IMG/VR virus record: IMGVR_UViG_3300029922_000181
Location: 1 to 36,511 of that record
Origin: a virus
DNA: 36,511 bases
Reading direction: 5' to 3' (one strand)
Position numbers and translations under genes: made by a program. This document shows positions 8,514 through 32,294 of this stretch, one piece after another (within the stretch, counting starts at the first letter, position 1; each line of letters starts with the position of its first letter). The notes below the pieces were generated by a model that worked only from the letters and a program-made list of their open reading frames with translations, was not told the origin of the DNA and searched no databases.

Positions 8514-8603
8514 CCTCGGCATATACCTGTTTTGAAATCTGCGTAGAATGTCTACTGTACGTAAGATTATGTCTGATTGATTTTACTGAATAATTCAACA
8601 TAA

Positions 8604-8720
8604 GTAGGACGCGACTCCTACAAGGGGGTGGTAATCCCTCTTTCGTCGCACCTTCTCTTTCGAGCACCGACGACCCACTGAATCCTTGATTACCCTGATG
8701 CGTGTCTCTTAGTGTCGTCG
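8604..8720. ncRNA. Candidate structured RNA with interlocking helices
   Basis: The segment has four perfectly complementary pairs. GTAGGA (8604-8609) pairs with TCCTAC (8616-8621). The loop between them, GCGAC (8611-8615), pairs with GTCGC (8645-8649), giving a pseudoknot. GGTAATC (8630-8636) pairs with GATTACC (8688-8694). CGACGAC (8668-8674) pairs with GTCGTCG (8714-8720). No credible reading frame crosses it on either strand and no clear promoter is seen. The pairs fit RNA from either strand, so the strand is not assigned. The family is not recognised; it is not an ordinary tRNA. Confidence 0.45.
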
Positions 8721-8869
8721 CCTTTACCCCATTTAAGGATGGTCTTGCCGCCCACAGCTTTCCACGCCGCTATGTTGAAAATCTAAGCTGGTGCGGGTCC
8801 ATCTTCTACAGCATCCGAATGGCTCATCTTCTAGATAGCGCCCATTCCGCAATGCCAACCCCGCAGCTT

Positions 8870-14607: not shown

Positions 14608-15846
14608 CTAGTGGAAGTCCGTGTTCTTATCATCGGAGAGATAGTCTTCAGAAACCCACTTCAGGGCCTTCTTGTTGCCATCTACGTCGTATCCTTCGGC
14701 AGCCTTGACCACCAGACCTTCACGGACCTTGGTCTTGGCGTCGTAGGCGCTAGGGCCTTTGGTGAGGCCATAGGTCAGCTCTTGGTTGTACGGGCCAATA
14801 TAGAGCACGGGCACATACTCGAAGCCGCGCTCTTTGCAGAACGTTTCCACTTCGCTAGGGTTCAGCCAGCGGAACTTACCATCTTCTTGAAGCACCTTGG
14901 CGTCAAAAACTACGAAACGGTGCTCAGAGAGGCCATATTCGTAGCCTGCCTGAATTTTAGGACCAATGATTTCACCATAAACGATCTCGCCCACTTTGAG
15001 CTTGCTGAACACGTCCATAGCAGAGAAGCACTTACCGTAGATATCTTCGCCATAGAAACCTTTGTATTCGGTAGCGGCAGAGATATCTACGTTGTTGGAC
15101 CCATAGCAGTTCTCGGTCTTAGAAGCAAGGCCAAAGAGCTTCTTGAGCTTCTTGCGCCAGGTGTTCGCCATGAAAGGCAGTACGGACGCGCGTGCGTTGG
15201 TACCATGAAGCTTCTCTTGGAGGACAACCTGATCGCCTCCCTTGAACATGTTCGGGAACCACTTGATGTTGGACAGGCCGTTGTACTTATGGAACAACGG
15301 ATGCTCATGTTTCTTATTGCGGTTCTTAGCAAGGCCCTGCGTATGGGAAGGTCCACGTTGAGGCGGCTCATACTTCGTCACACCAAGGATGGCGGCGAGG
15401 TCTTGTTCCAACTTCAAATAGTCAGGATTGACCTTGGAGGTCACGTCAACAGGGTCCAGGAGCATACCTTGGGAGGCAAGGCCACGAAGCTTGATCTGGC
15501 GCACGCGGTGATGGTGAAGCTTCACCTTGGAGTCAGGCGGAAACACTTCGTCTTCCAGCCATTGAGGGAGAAGCGAGTCGATCGGAATGTAGATCACCTT
15601 GTCGCCAACCTTGTATTGGCCCTTACGCACGATCACTTGGAAGCCATAAACCGTAGCAAGTTCAAGGCGTTCCGCGTTGTTGTGAGGATTGAGTTCGAGA
15701 ATGGTTGTCAGAGGAACTTTGTAAAGACTGCCTCCATCTTCCGAAGTGGTAGGGGCTACTTCCACTACGGTTCCAGACGAAAGATCTACGATTTCTTCTT
15801 TGGCAGCTTTTTTCAACCAGCGATCAGTAAAATTAAGATTAAACAT
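14608..15846 (-). CDS. RNA ligase with N-terminal OB-like domain (DraRnl/DRB0094 type)
   Basis: This ATP-dependent ligase would seal 5'-phosphate and 3'-OH RNA ends. ATG 15846, after AAGGAG, gives 412 residues. Residues 1-150 form an extra N-terminal domain (ELNPHNNAERLELATVYGFQ, YKVGDKVIYIP) as in Deinococcus Rnl. The nucleotidyltransferase core follows: motif I KLHGTN with adenylated Lys212, motif III VYGEIIG (289-295), IIIa FVVFDAKV (311-318), IV REGLVVK (375-381), V KALKWV (393-398). It starts 8 bases inside the HNH-AP2 gene that separates it from the kinase-phosphatase, its likely partner. Confidence 0.92.
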   Translation of the reverse strand: MFNLNFTDRWLKKAAKEEIVDLSSGTVVEVAPTTSEDGGSLYKVPLTTILELNPHNNAERLELATVYGFQVIVRKGQYKVGDKVIYIPIDSLLPQWLEDEVFPPDSKVKLHHHRVRQIKLRGLASQGMLLDPVDVTSKVNPDYLKLEQDLAAILGVTKYEPPQRGPSHTQGLAKNRNKKHEHPLFHKYNGLSNIKWFPNMFKGGDQVVLQEKLHGTNARASVLPFMANTWRKKLKKLFGLASKTENCYGSNNVDISAATEYKGFYGEDIYGKCFSAMDVFSKLKVGEIVYGEIIGPKIQAGYEYGLSEHRFVVFDAKVLQEDGKFRWLNPSEVETFCKERGFEYVPVLYIGPYNQELTYGLTKGPSAYDAKTKVREGLVVKAAEGYDVDGNKKALKWVSEDYLSDDKNTDFH

Positions 15847-16306
15847 ATAAGGACTCCTTAAAATTAAGCTTAGCGTATTTTCCAAAATATTGCAATGCAG
15901 CTTTGTCGTAAGCCATAGCTGCTTGTTTTTCTTCAACAAAAAATCCAAGATGGGTTTCTTTGTACTCTACTTTTATTCTAGCTCTCCATTTACCGCTCTT
16001 TGAGTCAAAATTTACACCCTTATATTTTGAAGACTTATTTACACTTTTTGAACGATTTTTAGTATTCTCAGAATGGGAACAAATCCTAAGATTTTGTTTT
16101 CTGTTATCTAATTTGTCTCCATTTATATGGTCTACGGAAAGAATTGTTTCGCCAACTACGGTCTTATGCATATACTCTGTCTTGTTGCCATTTTTTCTAG
16201 TAGCATAGCCGCCCGAACTACAACACCATGTTTTAGAAGATAAACGCGCAAAATCTTCATCATCTACTACAGCAACAGTGTTTCTGGTCAACTTTATAAT
16301 GTTCAA
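15839..16306 (-). CDS. HNH homing endonuclease with AP2 domain
   Basis: This 155-residue protein has HNH_3 residues YMHKTVVGETILSVDHINGD and LDNRKQNLRICSHSENTKN, then an AP2 domain (KYKGVNFDSKSGKWRARIKV to AAMAYDKAALQYFGKYAKLNF). It is a paralogue of the enzyme at 9944-10411. The ATG overlaps the kinase-phosphatase stop (ATGA) and the end overlaps the RNA ligase start by 8 bases, so it sits between two RNA-repair genes without breaking the operon. Confidence 0.92.
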   Translation of the reverse strand: MNIIKLTRNTVAVVDDEDFARLSSKTWCCSSGGYATRKNGNKTEYMHKTVVGETILSVDHINGDKLDNRKQNLRICSHSENTKNRSKSVNKSSKYKGVNFDSKSGKWRARIKVEYKETHLGFFVEEKQAAMAYDKAALQYFGKYAKLNFKESLYV

Positions 16307-17199
16307 AAGTCACCATTTGCACAATGTAAGCAAGTAAAACCGCGACGACGCCACATCGCTACAACTCTTGCGCGGTCGTCGATCATAAAAAAAGGAGTAA
16401 AACGGGTTAGAATCTCGAAATCCAAAATGATCTCTTTTACGATGCTATCCTCACGGTGATCTGATCTGGGGCGCATATAGAGATGGGGTTTCGTGGGAAA
16501 AACTGCTGGATCGAGCATTCCGTACTTGCCAAGCCACTCCGCAGTCTCTCCACCAAAGGAATCGGGGCGCCCTGAGGCGTACACGATTACGTGGTTCTTG
16601 GCCATGCCTTGTACAAGCTCGGCGCACCACAGGTTAGGGGTGTCAAGGTACATATTTGCAAAAAAATCTTTCCAGTTTTTCTTGCCAATGCCACCATGGC
16701 TATCAGGTTTCACGAAGTGAAAGCGATGATCTAGATTGCATAGGGTACCATCCAGGTCGCATACTACTGCAGAGGGCTTGGGGCCTTCTGGATAGCGAAA
16801 CTCCACCGAGTCAGCTTCGTCTTCGGTAGGACGCTCGTAGCTCTTAAAGAAGAAGTCAAGGGCGATCCTGGCGGTCTTGTCGTCTTTGACAGTAGGATGA
16901 TCCTTACGCGCGTTAGCGCGGTCAAGGCAGGTCTTAAAAGACTCGTGCAGTACGATAATTTTGGACGTATATCCATTTTGCTTGGCCAGGGAAAGATAGT
17001 TGTTGCGCTGATTCCTGTCGAAATTCATGCGATCAACGACAATGCACTTGCCTTCGGCAACAGCTTTCTCGAAAATCTGGCGCTGGCCAACTTTACCTTG
17101 ATCGTCAGTGTTCACGCGAACATAGCCTTGTTCAACGTATTGTTTAGACAGCGTTGACTTCCCGCTTCCAGGAGGGCCTACCAAAATAGTGATTATCAT
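16303..17199 (-). CDS. pseT: T4-type polynucleotide 5'-kinase / 3'-phosphatase
   Basis: This bifunctional RNA/DNA end-healing enzyme phosphorylates 5'-OH ends and removes 3'-phosphates or 2',3'-cyclic phosphates. The 298 residues match T4 Pnkp layout and length (301). The N-terminal kinase has P-loop GPPGSGKST (8-16) and Asp in VNTDDQG. The C-terminal HAD phosphatase has DLDGT (148-152), SGRPD (Arg211), RSDHREDSIVKE (Lys255), MIDDR (273-276) and a T4-like ending MWRRRGFTCLHCANGDF. It overlaps the neighbours by ATGA on both sides. With the ligase downstream it reconstitutes tRNA repair as in T4. Confidence 0.95.
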   Translation of the reverse strand: MIITILVGPPGSGKSTLSKQYVEQGYVRVNTDDQGKVGQRQIFEKAVAEGKCIVVDRMNFDRNQRNNYLSLAKQNGYTSKIIVLHESFKTCLDRANARKDHPTVKDDKTARIALDFFFKSYERPTEDEADSVEFRYPEGPKPSAVVCDLDGTLCNLDHRFHFVKPDSHGGIGKKNWKDFFANMYLDTPNLWCAELVQGMAKNHVIVYASGRPDSFGGETAEWLGKYGMLDPAVFPTKPHLYMRPRSDHREDSIVKEIILDFEILTRFTPFFMIDDRARVVAMWRRRGFTCLHCANGDF

Positions 17200-17408
17200 T
17201 CTTCATCCCATCCATATGTAATTTCGCCATTACATTGAGAGCAACCAGGACAGCCTCCAAGTTCTGGGGGCATAAGGCCAGCATCCAACAGTGCCCTAAG
17301 AATGTTCTGTGCGCTTTTTTCAAGGTCTAGATTAGCTTGAGCATCTGTATCTGTATCTATAGTGCCAATATTATTTTTAATTAATTCTATTGCTTCGCTT
17401 CGTTTCAT
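17196..17408 (-). CDS. Unknown small protein, tandem paralogue 2
   Basis: This 70-residue protein begins MKRSEAIELIKNNIG and ends YGWDEE. A central helix (NLDLEKSAQNILRALLDAGLMPPE) is followed by CPGCSQC, possibly metal binding. The upstream gene shares the start MKRSEAI, the MLPP/LMPP turn after the helix and the WDEE end, so the two arose by duplication. It overlaps the kinase ATG and the paralogue by ATGA. Function unknown. Confidence 0.7.
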   Translation of the reverse strand: MKRSEAIELIKNNIGTIDTDTDAQANLDLEKSAQNILRALLDAGLMPPELGGCPGCSQCNGEITYGWDEE

Positions 17409-17641
17409 TCTTCATCCCATACACGTTGAGCAGGGCCGTGCTTTTCGCCGCCGTGATAGGTGTCTGAAACCATCTTGCAGGTCTGTGTAGGCGGCAGCAT
17501 TCCTAGCTCTTTTTCAATAAAATCCAACAAATTTTTAGCTCTCATCTCGTAAATACCAGCGTCATAATTCTCTTTAGTTATGATCTCTACAGGGCTAATG
17601 ACCTTGTGCATTAATTTATTGATAGCTTCGCTACGTTTCAT
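17405..17641 (-). CDS. Unknown small protein, tandem paralogue 1
   Basis: This 78-residue protein begins MKRSEAINKLMHKVIS and ends QRVWDEE. The helix YEMRAKNLLDFIEKELGMLPP aligns with the helix of the following gene. The CxxC pair of the paralogue is not conserved; a lone Cys lies in QTCKMVSD. It overlaps the genes on both sides by four bases. Similar short MKRSEAI proteins are likely a phage family, but I cannot name it. Confidence 0.7.
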   Translation of the reverse strand: MKRSEAINKLMHKVISPVEIITKENYDAGIYEMRAKNLLDFIEKELGMLPPTQTCKMVSDTYHGGEKHGPAQRVWDEE

Positions 17642-17925
17642 CCGTTGCCCCTAATGTAGGTTGAGGGTACAGGTACCCAATGCTTACCTATAATACACAT
17701 TATCAGTTTTCCATCGGCCTTGCCAGTGAATTTGTTGGTGCCGTTAGTATGCTGTATACTTTTCTTATTTTCGTCCAAACGCTTCCTAATGTGATCTGGA
17801 AGCAATGTTTCATTCCAAAACACAAATAGAAGGGTTCCAGGATGAAACTCCACCATGTCGTCTGGGCCACCAGACGGTGGGAAAAATCTTATGCTTTGCT
17901 TGAGGGAGTACTCTGGAAGCTTCAC
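17638..17925 (-). CDS. Unknown protein
   Basis: This 95-residue protein is beta-rich and slightly basic: MKLPEYSLKQSIRFFPP, GGPDDMVEFHPGTLLFVFWN, then GKLIMCIIGKHWVPVPS. The pattern suggests a small barrel or SH3-like fold, without a recognised family. The ATG directly follows the stop of the RlaP-like gene (TAGTG-like junction at 17926), so it belongs to the RNA-repair operon. Confidence 0.6.
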   Translation of the reverse strand: MKLPEYSLKQSIRFFPPSGGPDDMVEFHPGTLLFVFWNETLLPDHIRKRLDENKKSIQHTNGTNKFTGKADGKLIMCIIGKHWVPVPSTYIRGNG

Positions 17926-18927
17926 TTAGCCTTCTTTCACTATATTGCTGTATATCTGATAAATGAAATCATTTGCCCAATCATAGTCAGGCTCTGCTCG
18001 CATGGTAGATTTAGCCTGTTCCTCATGGAGTTCAGCTACGCCAATCTCAATGAGTTCTGCCACCTTATCCCATTCCATCCTAGCTTCCTTAATTTGAAGA
18101 AGAAGCTCACGATCAGGACGTGGGAACGTAATACGGCCAGTCTTTAGAAGCTCTAGGGCCTCAGTATTCACACGTACAGCGTGGGAGATAGCTTTCCAGT
18201 CTTTGCCGCCTGCGAGGTTCGCTTTGATAGCTCTATCGCCGTAGCCAGCCAAAATCTTGCCAAAGCAGTCCTTGGCTAGTTTAACCGTAGAAGTAAAGCC
18301 GATCTTGCGGCCACAAACTACGAGGTGAGGAATCATTTCGTCTTTGCCAACGGCAGGAATGTCCTGAATCTCGATTAGAGGCGTTTTCTCAAGCGAAACT
18401 AACTCTTTAGAATCGGCCACTAGCTTATGGATGGCATCTGCGTGCATTTCTAATTTTTCGTAGTTGTTAAAAGTCTCTAGGAGTGCAACGGTATTCTTGA
18501 GAGCATCCATTCGGGTGCCCTTGATGCCGTATTTAGCGGCCTGCTTACGCGCATAGCCTACGAATGCGTTGATGTTCTTGGTAAGCAGACGATCTTTATT
18601 CAAAAAGATTTCTGACATGATATCGGCGCCTTCACCGATGCAGCCGCCGTTCTGCCAAGGAGCAAACAAAATATCCAAAGCAAAGGTTTGGCCTTCCATG
18701 AGTTGATCGAGGAAGCGGTCCAGACTGAAGATTTCAATGTCGATATCGTCTTTAGTATTGCGCTCGCCCTCTTTCTTTTGGCGAGTAATGACTTCGGTCT
18801 TTTTGTAGGTATGTAGTACGATATCTCTGGCGGTAGGCAAATAGATCGCCTTGAAATCCAAATCAGAATTCTCGTTGTTCGTACCGTATAGGTGGGAACC
18901 GAATTTGATCTCAAGAATTTTGTTCAT
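17926..18927 (-). CDS. RlaP-like nucleotidyltransferase (RNA-repair DNA polymerase beta family)
   Basis: This 333-residue protein starts with the nucleotidyltransferase core FGSHLYGTNNENSDLDFKAI: Gly10-Ser11 and the metal-binding Asp22 and Asp24, with a third acidic strand in DDIDIEIFSL. The rest is helical. It fits the COG3541/RlaP family, seen with RNA ligases, kinases and HAD proteins in RNA-repair clusters and predicted to add nucleotides to damaged RNA ends. Here it lies four genes before the kinase-phosphatase, in the same operon. Overlap with the phosphatase gene is 17 bases. Biochemical role is inferred. Confidence 0.85.
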   Translation of the reverse strand: MNKILEIKFGSHLYGTNNENSDLDFKAIYLPTARDIVLHTYKKTEVITRQKKEGERNTKDDIDIEIFSLDRFLDQLMEGQTFALDILFAPWQNGGCIGEGADIMSEIFLNKDRLLTKNINAFVGYARKQAAKYGIKGTRMDALKNTVALLETFNNYEKLEMHADAIHKLVADSKELVSLEKTPLIEIQDIPAVGKDEMIPHLVVCGRKIGFTSTVKLAKDCFGKILAGYGDRAIKANLAGGKDWKAISHAVRVNTEALELLKTGRITFPRPDRELLLQIKEARMEWDKVAELIEIGVAELHEEQAKSTMRAEPDYDWANDFIYQIYSNIVKEG

Positions 18928-28735: not shown

Positions 28736-28938
28736 AAACCAGTTACTACCTTGAGAGCTACCTTGCCCCAGTCACCCAAATGACTCGTGGGATCGTATGT
28801 TCCCCAGTTGATTAAGTGTAGTGCGTCTGAAATCGTTTTTTCTTTCTCATTTTCAAGCAATGGAGCATCTTTTATACGCTCTAAGGCCATGGTAGCAACT
28901 TTAAGTTTTTGTCTTTCTGATAGCTCAAAAGCGTTCAT
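28732..28938 (-). CDS. Unknown small protein
   Basis: This 68-residue protein is helical: MNAFELSERQKLKVATMALE, then EKEKTISDALHLINWG and HLGDWGKVALKVVTGL. A good ribosome site (TTGGAGATAAA) lies between it and the T-run ending the tRNA-like RNA, so it is the first protein gene downstream of that RNA and may be expressed by readthrough. Confidence 0.62.
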   Translation of the reverse strand: MNAFELSERQKLKVATMALERIKDAPLLENEKEKTISDALHLINWGTYDPTSHLGDWGKVALKVVTGL

Positions 28939-28952
28939 TTTATCTCCAAAAA

Positions 28953-29152
28953 TGTGTATTGGGTAGGATTCGACACCTACTAGAACTCAAGCAACTAGAT
29001 TAATCATACATGCTGCTAGCACAACGTATGATCGGTTCCGACTCCAGCTTATCGCGTGTCTCATTTTTCCAGCTAGGCTCCGTTACCATATTGAGCCTAT
29101 TCTAATCCTCGCCCCTCGGAAGGGTTCGGCACTGTATCCACGCCGCCAATAC
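28953..29152 (-). ncRNA. Candidate tRNA-like / tmRNA-like structured RNA
   Basis: Read leftward, GTATTGG (29146-29152) pairs perfectly with CCAATAC (28956-28962), giving a 7-bp acceptor-like stem. Directly before the 3' strand is a T-arm-like hairpin, GTAGG (28976-28980) and CCTAC (28963-28967), with loop TGTCGAAT; ACA and TTTTT follow. Directly before the T-arm, TTGAGTTCTA (28981-28990) pairs with TAGAA (29100-29104) and CTCAA (29091-29095), as the long helix of tmRNA does. Inside lies ATCATAC/GTATGAT (29026-29032, 29003-29009). The 5' end falls at the predicted start of the promoter at 29159-29187. Against tmRNA: no G3:U70 pair, an 8-base T-loop, no encoded CCA and no clear tag. Confidence 0.55.
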
Positions 29153-29158
29153 CTAGCA

Positions 29159-29187
29159 AGTATGGCAGACCGGAACGGTCGTGTCAA
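29159..29187 (-). promoter_or_regulatory. Sigma70-like promoter for the tRNA-like RNA
   Basis: TTGACA (29182-29187) and CATACT (29159-29164) are exactly 17 bases apart on the - strand. A start 7 bases after the -10 would be the G at 29152, the first base of the acceptor-like stem. The -35 overlaps the end of the T-run of the preceding terminator. The transcript could continue into the genes from 28938 leftward. Confidence 0.7.
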
Positions 29188-29221
29188 ATAAAAAGAGCCT
29201 CCGTTTTATTTACGGAAGCTC
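29186..29221 (-). terminator. Rho-independent terminator
   Basis: On the - strand GAGCTTCCGT (29212-29221) and ACGGAGGCTC (29195-29204) form a 10-bp stem with one G-U pair and a 7-base AT loop, followed by TTTTTATTT (29186-29194). It ends transcription of the genes at 29248-30117 and insulates the RNA gene that starts just after it. Confidence 0.85.
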
Positions 29222-29247
29222 CTGTAGCGGCTGACTGATTTAGTCTA

Positions 29248-29601
29248 TTAGGGAATGAGCCAAGAAATTATGATGCGGGCTGGGTTCTTGATTTCGGGCG
29301 GAACGCCGTTTAGGCGCCAGTAGTCAAACCAGGCTTGGCCAAAGAGTTGGGCGGGCTGCATATTGAACAGGATGGAGTCTGGGAACGTCACAACGTACCC
29401 AAGGGCGGCGAACGTGGAGGCGATGGTGGCAAGGTCACAGTTCTCGAAAGACGTGACTGAGACCTGGTATACGCCCCTTAGAATGGCATCGTTTATAAGG
29501 TCCGTGGTCAAAGCAATGAACTTAGCATTAGCCGCCACCTGGAGGGCAGTTAGGTCAGCTAAGGTCGAGGCATGAGCAGTGGCATTGTTTGGTAAACTCA
29601 T
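29248..29601 (-). CDS. Unknown protein, possibly virion-associated
   Basis: This 117-residue protein has a Thr/Ala-rich helical start (ATAHASTLADLTALQVAANA), then SFENCDLATIASTFAALGYV and a hydrophobic end (ARIIISWLIP). The repeated 'ILRGVYQVSV' style segment with a later YVVTFPDSI suggests a small alpha/beta fold. The terminator at 29186-29221 follows. No recognised family; structural or decoration protein is a guess. Confidence 0.62.
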   Translation of the reverse strand: MSLPNNATAHASTLADLTALQVAANAKFIALTTDLINDAILRGVYQVSVTSFENCDLATIASTFAALGYVVTFPDSILFNMQPAQLFGQAWFDYWRLNGVPPEIKNPARIIISWLIP

Positions 29602-31026: not shown

Positions 31027-32294
31027 ATATGAAAGATTACCATTGAACCGATATGTTGGCAATATTACAGAAAAAAATTTTTTATCGGGCACAAGATAAA
31101 GTGTTTATTGGGATCGGTAAAAAGATCGGCATAGGACTAGAGCAAAAAGTGAATTTCTATATGAAACTATTGATGTTTTTAAAACAAGTGCATCGGCATA
31201 ATCGTGGGGAAGGGGATTCTGAAAAAATTCTTTTTTGAAGGAGAGGCCGTGTTCTAGTACATAAGGGCTTTAGGGCAAGATCCATGCCATTAGCGGGGAA
31301 GCGGTATTTATGTCTGATATCAGGTACTTAGGGGGGCCTGTCTCACCGTGGCTGCGCCCTCTTATAGCCATGTCAATCTGACCAGCTTATAGACGCCTAT
31401 ACGTTAGACAGATACATCTCCGCTTGGATTAGTCAGTGATATCACACGCGTACATCCTGTACGTATCTTGCATCTATCTCATGTCTCATATAAACGCATA
31501 CAGCCTAATGGCCTATGTATTGCATAGAGACGTAGCGCACGCGCCTATCGCGTAGCGTGGCACGTAGTGCCTAGTCTATAACGCTTATTAGGTTACATAG
31601 CATTAGGGCCTGTTAGGCATGGGTTAGGCTTAGCGTGTATGGCATAGCCACGCTTGCAGCGTAACGCACTGTTAGGTAACGCATATAGGCCAAAGGGTTA
31701 GGTAGGTGAGTGTAGAGGCATGCTATATGCAGGGCTATGCATAGGCGCTTGCGCTAGGTTAGCCAAAGGGTTAGACGCAGGAATACCCGCACCAGTGAAT
31801 GCAGGAAAATTGAGTTAGGTTAGGCCACACGTAGCGCGGCGAAACGCGGTTTTTCCGCCTCAATTAGACTAATGCACCTTAGCATTTTGCCGTGATTAGG
31901 CCTAAATAGGTGCGCTAAGCGCCCGTATTAATTGACGTTTTTGCGTGCATTTAAGCCTAATCATGTTTTCCCATGCTATATAACGTAGCGCTAGCGCCGT
32001 GAGTGTTAGCATAGTTTTTGCATCCTGTATCTTAGGGGATATAAGCTACCGTGTTCCCATGGGCGTCTGGTAGCAATGCGATAGCCGCCTATTGGATAGG
32101 TTAGGCTAGCCGCACTAATGCCTCTTTAAGATTGTATGGTACGTTTGGCATAGGTCATGCAAGGCCTTATAGTTGAGTGTGGGAAACGTGTAGCTAGCGT
32201 GTAGTGGGGCCTAATAACTGCTAATATTAACTAATGGCACTAACATTGCATTAATGGAGTATGGCATAGCTATTGTATGCTAAAGAATAATGGG
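31027..32294. other. Gene-free region with shifted word usage, between leftward and rightward modules
   Basis: No credible frame with a ribosome site is seen in these 1.27 kb on either strand. From about 31240 the sequence becomes rich in TAGG, CCTA, CTAG and GCGC words, a style shared with the genes to its right but not with the left 31 kb. It holds palindromes CTGATATCAG (31314-31323), GTGATATCAC (31436-31445) and GCGCTAGCGC (31988-31997), and a hairpin AGCGTG/CACGCT (31632-31654). Position between opposite gene directions suits an origin, terminus or packaging-related region; no iteron array is seen. Confidence 0.5.

Follow-up and report, generated by a model that had tools for sequence, protein, structure and literature searches.

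A family of small phage RNAs with a conserved tRNA-like frame and a variable arm

The 200-base element and its homologues

The stretch of viral DNA analysed here, IMG/VR record IMGVR_UViG_3300029922_000181 over its full 36,511 nucleotides (nt; hereafter the window), contains at positions 28953-29152 about 200 bases whose ends resemble those of a transfer RNA (tRNA), which raises the question of whether this locus is an RNA gene and, if so, of what class. An earlier note, made from the sequence alone, had read it as an RNA gene of about this length with tRNA-like ends, and had named a divergent transfer-messenger RNA (tmRNA), a tRNA mimic or a new phage RNA class as candidates. We conclude that the element is a genuine RNA gene, confirmed on the minus strand, and that tRNA mimic or new phage RNA class was the right branch among these candidates. 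The strand, which had not been given, follows from every feature discussed below: the RNA is 197 nt long and runs 5' to 3' from 29152 to 28956, with the bases ACA at 28953-28955 lying outside it as 3' flank, and a plus-strand reading was dropped once a promoter turned up on the minus strand. An RNA gene with tRNA-like ends is borne out by homologues, the window sequence alone being weak evidence for it. The fold z-score of the RNA was -1.84, and single-sequence folding was unconvincing; a loose descriptor of acceptor stem and T-arm matched 0.84 times per shuffled window; and searches of the window RNA with ARAGORN and Rfam gave nothing. Taken alone, the evidence from the window barely exceeds chance, and it is the comparison with homologues that decides.

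A direct DNA search in phages, and a search of viral contigs with a pattern drawn from the window's own sequence, found no match, and the proteins that flank the element in the window gave almost no relatives when used as bait. The RNA ligase of the window, used in the same way, led to a 177-kb relative phage (G001), which is colinear with the window and carries a homologue of the RNA (TTGGTGG-CGGCGTGGAT...GTCGG-TATCAAGC-CCGAC-CCACCAA) with an acceptor and a T-arm that differ from those of the window. A 20-nt piece of the G001 RNA matched unannotated places in Pseudanabaena phage Pan3 and Caulobacter phage DMCA, both of which have the full frame described below. A pattern in which only CGGCGTGGAT and GGTRTCRARYCC were fixed next matched 79 viral contigs, and an exact 17-mer was found in more than 119 stretches of host genomes. 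About 37 of these stretches are genuine members and the others arose by chance; most exact 17-mer matches in actinobacterial genomes have no T-arm and were rejected as chance. At a score of at least 43 bits, the family comprises about 116 places, in viral contigs and in phage or prophage regions of host genomes. Its members in annotated phages sit where no gene is annotated; none of the phage records examined annotates the family, and Rfam does not contain it.

A conserved, covarying tRNA-like frame

The members share a frame made up of a 7-bp acceptor stem, CG, a D-like hairpin (GCGUG-GAUGGA-CACGC), a variable arm of 50-150 nt, one A, and a T-arm of 5 bp with an 8-nt URUCRARY loop that abuts the 3' strand of the acceptor. 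As the acceptor and the 3' strand of the D-stem lay outside the pattern that retrieved the 79 viral matches, they provided an unbiased test: at least six of the seven acceptor pairs were formed in 71 matches, the outer T-stem was formed in 75, and ACACGC was present in 72, while the acceptors were of 48 distinct sequences. We aligned 78 members with MAFFT, leaving out the window and G001, and RNAalifold yielded from this alignment exactly the acceptor, D- and T-arm helices. The frame pairs were formed in 98.9% of the alignment cells, with two-sided changes at 11 of the 17 pairs; none of 500 shuffles reached this level of covariation, and sliding the pairing by one base cut it to about 32%. Because the D-stem is nearly invariant, covariation is uninformative for it. 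The earlier note had proposed that the structure be abandoned if its pairings were not kept by compensatory changes in homologous phages, and for the acceptor and the T-arm this comparison supported the structure. The alignment shows that a conserved, covarying tRNA-like frame is present in many phages, including unrelated ones.

A covariance model (R1) built from the 78 members, without the window, matched the window over the full model length (1-139 of 139) at 28956-29152 on the minus strand, with a score of 33.0 bits (E 5.6e-4 in 36.5 kb), and matched the G001 RNA at 76 bits. The window RNA reads in order GTATTGG-CG-GCGTG-GAT...GA-CACGC-arm-A-GTAGG-TGTCGAAT-CCTAC-CCAATAC. Its ends are closed by the predicted 7-bp acceptor-type stem, formed between GTATTGG (29146-29152) and CCAATAC (28956-28962) with seven of seven pairs Watson-Crick, and the 5' strand is followed directly by CGGCGTGGAT, as it is in G001. 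Beyond the CG linker (29145-29144) lies the 5' strand of the D-stem, GCGTG (29139-29143), then GAT; alignment to R1 exposed its partner CACGC (29054-29058), preceded by GA, across a D-loop that is enlarged to 80 nt (29059-29138) instead of the 6 nt found in most members and that contains a 7-bp hairpin (TAGGCTC/GAGCCTA). The anticodon arm is replaced by the variable arm (28982-29053), in which sequence and minimum free energy folding place a P2-like helix (P3; AAGCTGGA at 29050-29043 with TCTAGTTGCTT at 28999-28989) and, within it, an inner hairpin (ATCATAC/GTATGAT). The A at 28981, invariant in the 78-member alignment, precedes the T-arm (28980-28963), found both by a descriptor scan and by the R1 match, which is, as had been noted, a 5-bp hairpin abutting the acceptor; its 8-nt loop is of the URUCRARY type. 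The geometry of acceptor and T-arm is that of tRNA, with a T-loop one base longer.

Transcription, genomic context and possible role

The window RNA appears to form its own transcription unit. A sigma-70 promoter (TTGACA-17-CATACT, with an extended -10 TG) lies at 29159-29187 on the minus strand (TTGACA 29187-29182, CATACT 29164-29159), and the seventh base after the -10 box is 29152, the first base of the acceptor, which is where the earlier note had predicted the start. As an intrinsic terminator (29193-29223, minus strand; a 12-bp stem, then a T-run) closes the upstream gene at 29248-29601, the RNA unit has its own promoter. Of the 83 members whose acceptor is not extended, 17 have a TA...T hexamer that ends 6 nt ahead of the first acceptor base, compared with about 0.8 at other offsets, and the CATACT of the window occupies this same spacing; as many members share this promoter position with the window, the window RNA is probably transcribed on its own. 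At the 3' end the predicted TTTTT is present (28948-28952), TTT occurs within 12 nt of the end in 20 of 97 members compared with about 5.5 further downstream, and six members are followed by a tRNA gene on the same strand that starts 8-9 nt further along. Promoter spacing, TTT enrichment and downstream tRNAs would all fit a short transcript whose ends resemble those of a tRNA.

In Novimethylophilus (L077:2111-2186, plus strand), ARAGORN calls a 'Stop' tRNA, an apparent ochre suppressor, 9 nt after a family RNA that has a near-perfect promoter. At L080, L095 and L220, a tRNA-Met (CAT) lies 8 nt downstream and is initiator-like, with a C1-A72 mismatch judged by eye. In G001, an unannotated tRNA-like element ending in CCACCA (L020:12500-12568, minus strand) is located between the family RNA and tRNA-Ile, and it matches the tymovirus tRNA-like structure weakly (18.1 bits, E 0.26).

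The sequence downstream of the window RNA runs ACA-TTTTT-GGAG and then reaches the ATG of a 68-amino-acid open reading frame (ORF) at 28938, and this spacing, with the RNA ending 14 nt ahead of the start codon and T5 and then GGAG between, would suit a 5' leader of the riboswitch or thermosensor type that controls the gene at 28938-28732. However, the gene downstream of the RNA lies on the same strand in 39 cases and on the opposite strand in 54, no gene family recurs there, and in G001, which has the RNA homologue, no homologue of this ORF was detected. A leader acting in cis was set aside on the orientation of the downstream genes and the mixed neighbours, and we regard it as very unlikely. 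No neighbouring gene recurs beside the family, the neighbours being ordinary phage genes, and this, together with the lack of a preferred downstream strand, argues for action in trans. Some of the neighbours are terminases, endolysins and integrases, and the stems are palindromic, as in a DNA-level element (attachment site, origin or packaging signal) or a packaging RNA; but some of the compensatory changes produce G-U pairs, the motif of the T-loop is specific to one strand, the element has promoters directed into it and its neighbours are of mixed kinds, which makes an explanation of this kind highly improbable.

The family RNA was found in 10 of 120 Acetobacteraceae genomes and 4 of 249 Pseudomonadota genomes, mostly as one copy, and by this distribution it is an accessory, phage-borne element. 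We take its carriers to include both temperate and lytic phages. Members in annotated phages with known hosts include those of Caulobacter phage DMCA, Komagataeibacter phage phiKX1, Iodobacter phage phiPLPE and Alcaligenes phage QDWS595, and some phages have two copies. In the window, a descriptor scan found a second, more divergent copy with an enlarged D-loop at 8597-8776 on the minus strand (AACATAG-CGGCGTGGAA...GAGACACGC...GTAGG-AGTCGCGT-CCTAC-TTATGTT). Its G001 counterpart (L021:3134-3362, minus strand) also has an enlarged D-loop, with AGTAGCGA as T-loop where the window copy has AGTCGCGT, and the R1 search misses both of these copies. Elsewhere in the window, 31093-32294 is a 1.2-kb region nearly free of ORFs (one of 61 amino acids, on the plus strand at the low end) with recurring words such as CTAACC and ATGCCTA.

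The variable arm has no sequence conserved across members in the MAFFT alignment and differs in almost every phage, and no homologue was found with an arm similar to that of the window. The P2-like helix that had been described ahead of the T-arm is paired in the window, but compensatory changes are visible only in a few related pairs (L123/L220; L033/L133/L169), in which the arms preserve pairing through two-sided changes. Such retained pairing does not favour a base-pairing regulatory RNA, in which the frame merely protects the ends and the arm is antisense to host or phage mRNAs. The family's own promoter and the diversity of its arms suit trans-acting small RNAs, but exact arm matches in the member's own locus were no longer than those of shuffled arms (9.83 compared with 10.18 nt). 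The antisense arm was rejected for this lack of signal in the own locus, and we consider this explanation quite unlikely.

Another account of the arm would make the RNA a sacrificial tRNA mimic that absorbs an anticodon nuclease or other tRNA-targeting toxin, with an arm that tracks the nuclease of the host. The window phage encodes an RNA ligase, a polynucleotide kinase and an RlaP-type nucleotidyltransferase, which make a role against tRNA nucleases possible; a canonical T-arm is found inside 4 of 95 distinct arms (0.0 in shuffles), and L037 and L174 have anticodon-like hairpins. However, such hairpins occur in just 7 of the 95 arms, compared with 2.2 in shuffles, with three of the seven being T-arms, and no defence gene recurs nearby, so that we hold the nuclease decoy to be unlikely. 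No anticodon arm with a 7-nt loop was found at the proper place by ARAGORN in 99 members, and the arm as an anticodon arm was rejected as not general. The RNA-repair genes of the window lie together at 14608-18927 on the minus strand. The canonical T-arms within the arm are those of L029, L166, L179 and L197, and Pan3 and L197 apparently contain a whole degenerate tRNA.

The reading that we prefer, and for which we judge the case to be evenly balanced, is a stand-alone phage RNA gene of a new tRNA-like family, in which an elbow-docked frame would present a variable effector arm and the RNA would work in trans, by mimicry or as a decoy. The bases relevant to the elbow are GG in the D-loop and U-[R]-U-C-R-A in the T-loop, the latter being the tRNA consensus with one inserted base. 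By analogy with established tRNA architecture, the D- and T-loops would dock into a tRNA elbow, and through this docking host tRNA-handling proteins would engage the RNA; RNase P, tRNase Z, the CCA-adding enzyme or other binders of elbow and acceptor might bind, trim and protect it. Least certain are the steps that follow: the fast-changing, exposed arm may be the effector, and by mimicking a tRNA or serving as a decoy the RNA may counter a host factor that itself changes, the likeliest candidate being a component of defence or of translation.

Several observations weigh against this reading. The acceptor is lengthened by 6-16 bp in about 16 members, and free tRNA-like ends are therefore not universal; CCA is encoded in 1 of 99 members; the arm is only marginally stabler than shuffles (mean z -0.29); and chance 17-mer sites in host genomes score 24-35 bits, overlapping the 33 bits of the window. 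Because of this overlap, the membership of the window also rests on its close relative G001 and on the whole set of features, namely 12 of 12 frame pairs Watson-Crick, the T-loop, the invariant A and the promoter spacing. At nine loci with an extended acceptor, the pairs of the extension too change on both sides. In this subtype, seen in the flanks of L035, L037, L133, L145, L178, L181, L203 and L227, an inverted repeat lengthens the acceptor (e.g. CCATCACA/TGTGATGG), and at several loci the 3' strand could also pair with a sequence 70-100 nt downstream, which might point to a switch or to a second tRNA-like unit beyond it.

Under the reading of a stand-alone, trans-acting RNA, the family probably serves in host takeover or counter-defence. 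An arms race would be expected to leave a frame that stays fixed and an arm that diversifies, which makes the family a lead towards counter-defence, or takeover of translation, by RNA. We tentatively propose, as one possibility, that phages of many Pseudomonadota carry a modular RNA weapon, as does at least one cyanophage: its fixed tRNA-elbow frame would plug into the host tRNA machinery, and its arm would be rebuilt from one phage to the next through an arms race with a host factor of defence or translation. As the RNA is short, has its own promoter and is present in annotated phages with known hosts, its expression and function are directly testable.

Comparison with known RNAs

A known RNA close in layout is tmRNA (ssrA), which is also encoded by some phages. 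The family shares with it a 7-bp acceptor, a D-domain without an anticodon arm, a long insert with a P2-like helix before the T-arm, and a T-arm abutting the acceptor, and the tmRNA-like topology that had been proposed for the element holds as a layout. The 22-codon frame at 29055-28987 (AISWSRNRSYVVLAACMINLVA, then stop), which begins with GCG and ends in Leu-Val-Ala-stop, likewise exists, but as a tmRNA tag it fails, its GCG overlapping the conserved D-stem strand CACGC (29058-29054). No conserved tag frame was found in the family, the arms being unalignable between members and the frames of other members not translated individually. ARAGORN, one of the proposed checks, made no call in the window and found neither tmRNA nor tRNA in the 99 members, and the Infernal search with the tmRNA model, run with Rfam, gave no match even with permissive cut-offs. 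The alanine identity pair G3-U70 is present in 0 of the 78 aligned members (the window has A-U at pair 3), GCGUGGAUGGACACGC forms the D-domain in place of the tmRNA UUCGAC, and the family differs further in its true D-stem (GCGUG/CACGC), its 8-nt T-loop and its size, which is half that of tmRNA. A divergent tmRNA is refuted as far as sequence allows, and we leave it almost no probability.

More broadly, neither the window nor 24 member loci gave an Rfam match, and no Rfam family tested fits. The open-licence literature yielded no paper that describes the family or contains its conserved strings, and an earlier description elsewhere is possible. Viral tRNA-like structures of the tymovirus type share with the family the mimicry of tRNA by a viral RNA, but they are the 3' ends of RNA genomes, and the family has no match to RF00233. 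YrlA, a bacterial Y RNA with a tRNA-like module, is a non-coding RNA built on a tRNA-like elbow; in the family the elbow frame instead closes the ends of the RNA, and there is no Rfam match to YrlA-type families. GOLLD and ROOL are structured RNAs of phages and prophages that often lie near tRNAs, some with tRNA-like inserts. The family resembles them in being a structured phage or prophage RNA with tRNA proximity, but they are much larger and have another frame, and the family has no Rfam match to them. They are large, ornate phage RNAs, structures of which appear in PMC12286853.

With tRNA itself (RF00005), the family has in common the 7-bp acceptor, the 2-nt linker, the D-arm with GG, the 5-bp T-arm and, apart from one inserted base, the T-loop consensus, and it sometimes lies directly upstream of tRNA genes. 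It differs in lacking an anticodon arm, in place of which it has an arm of 50-150 nt of no fixed sequence, and in its 8-nt T-loop. As judged from these comparisons, the family is neither tmRNA nor tRNA but a group of small phage RNAs not listed before, and it would represent a third tRNA-shaped type of bacterial RNA beside those two, present at more than 100 places in the phages of several bacterial groups.
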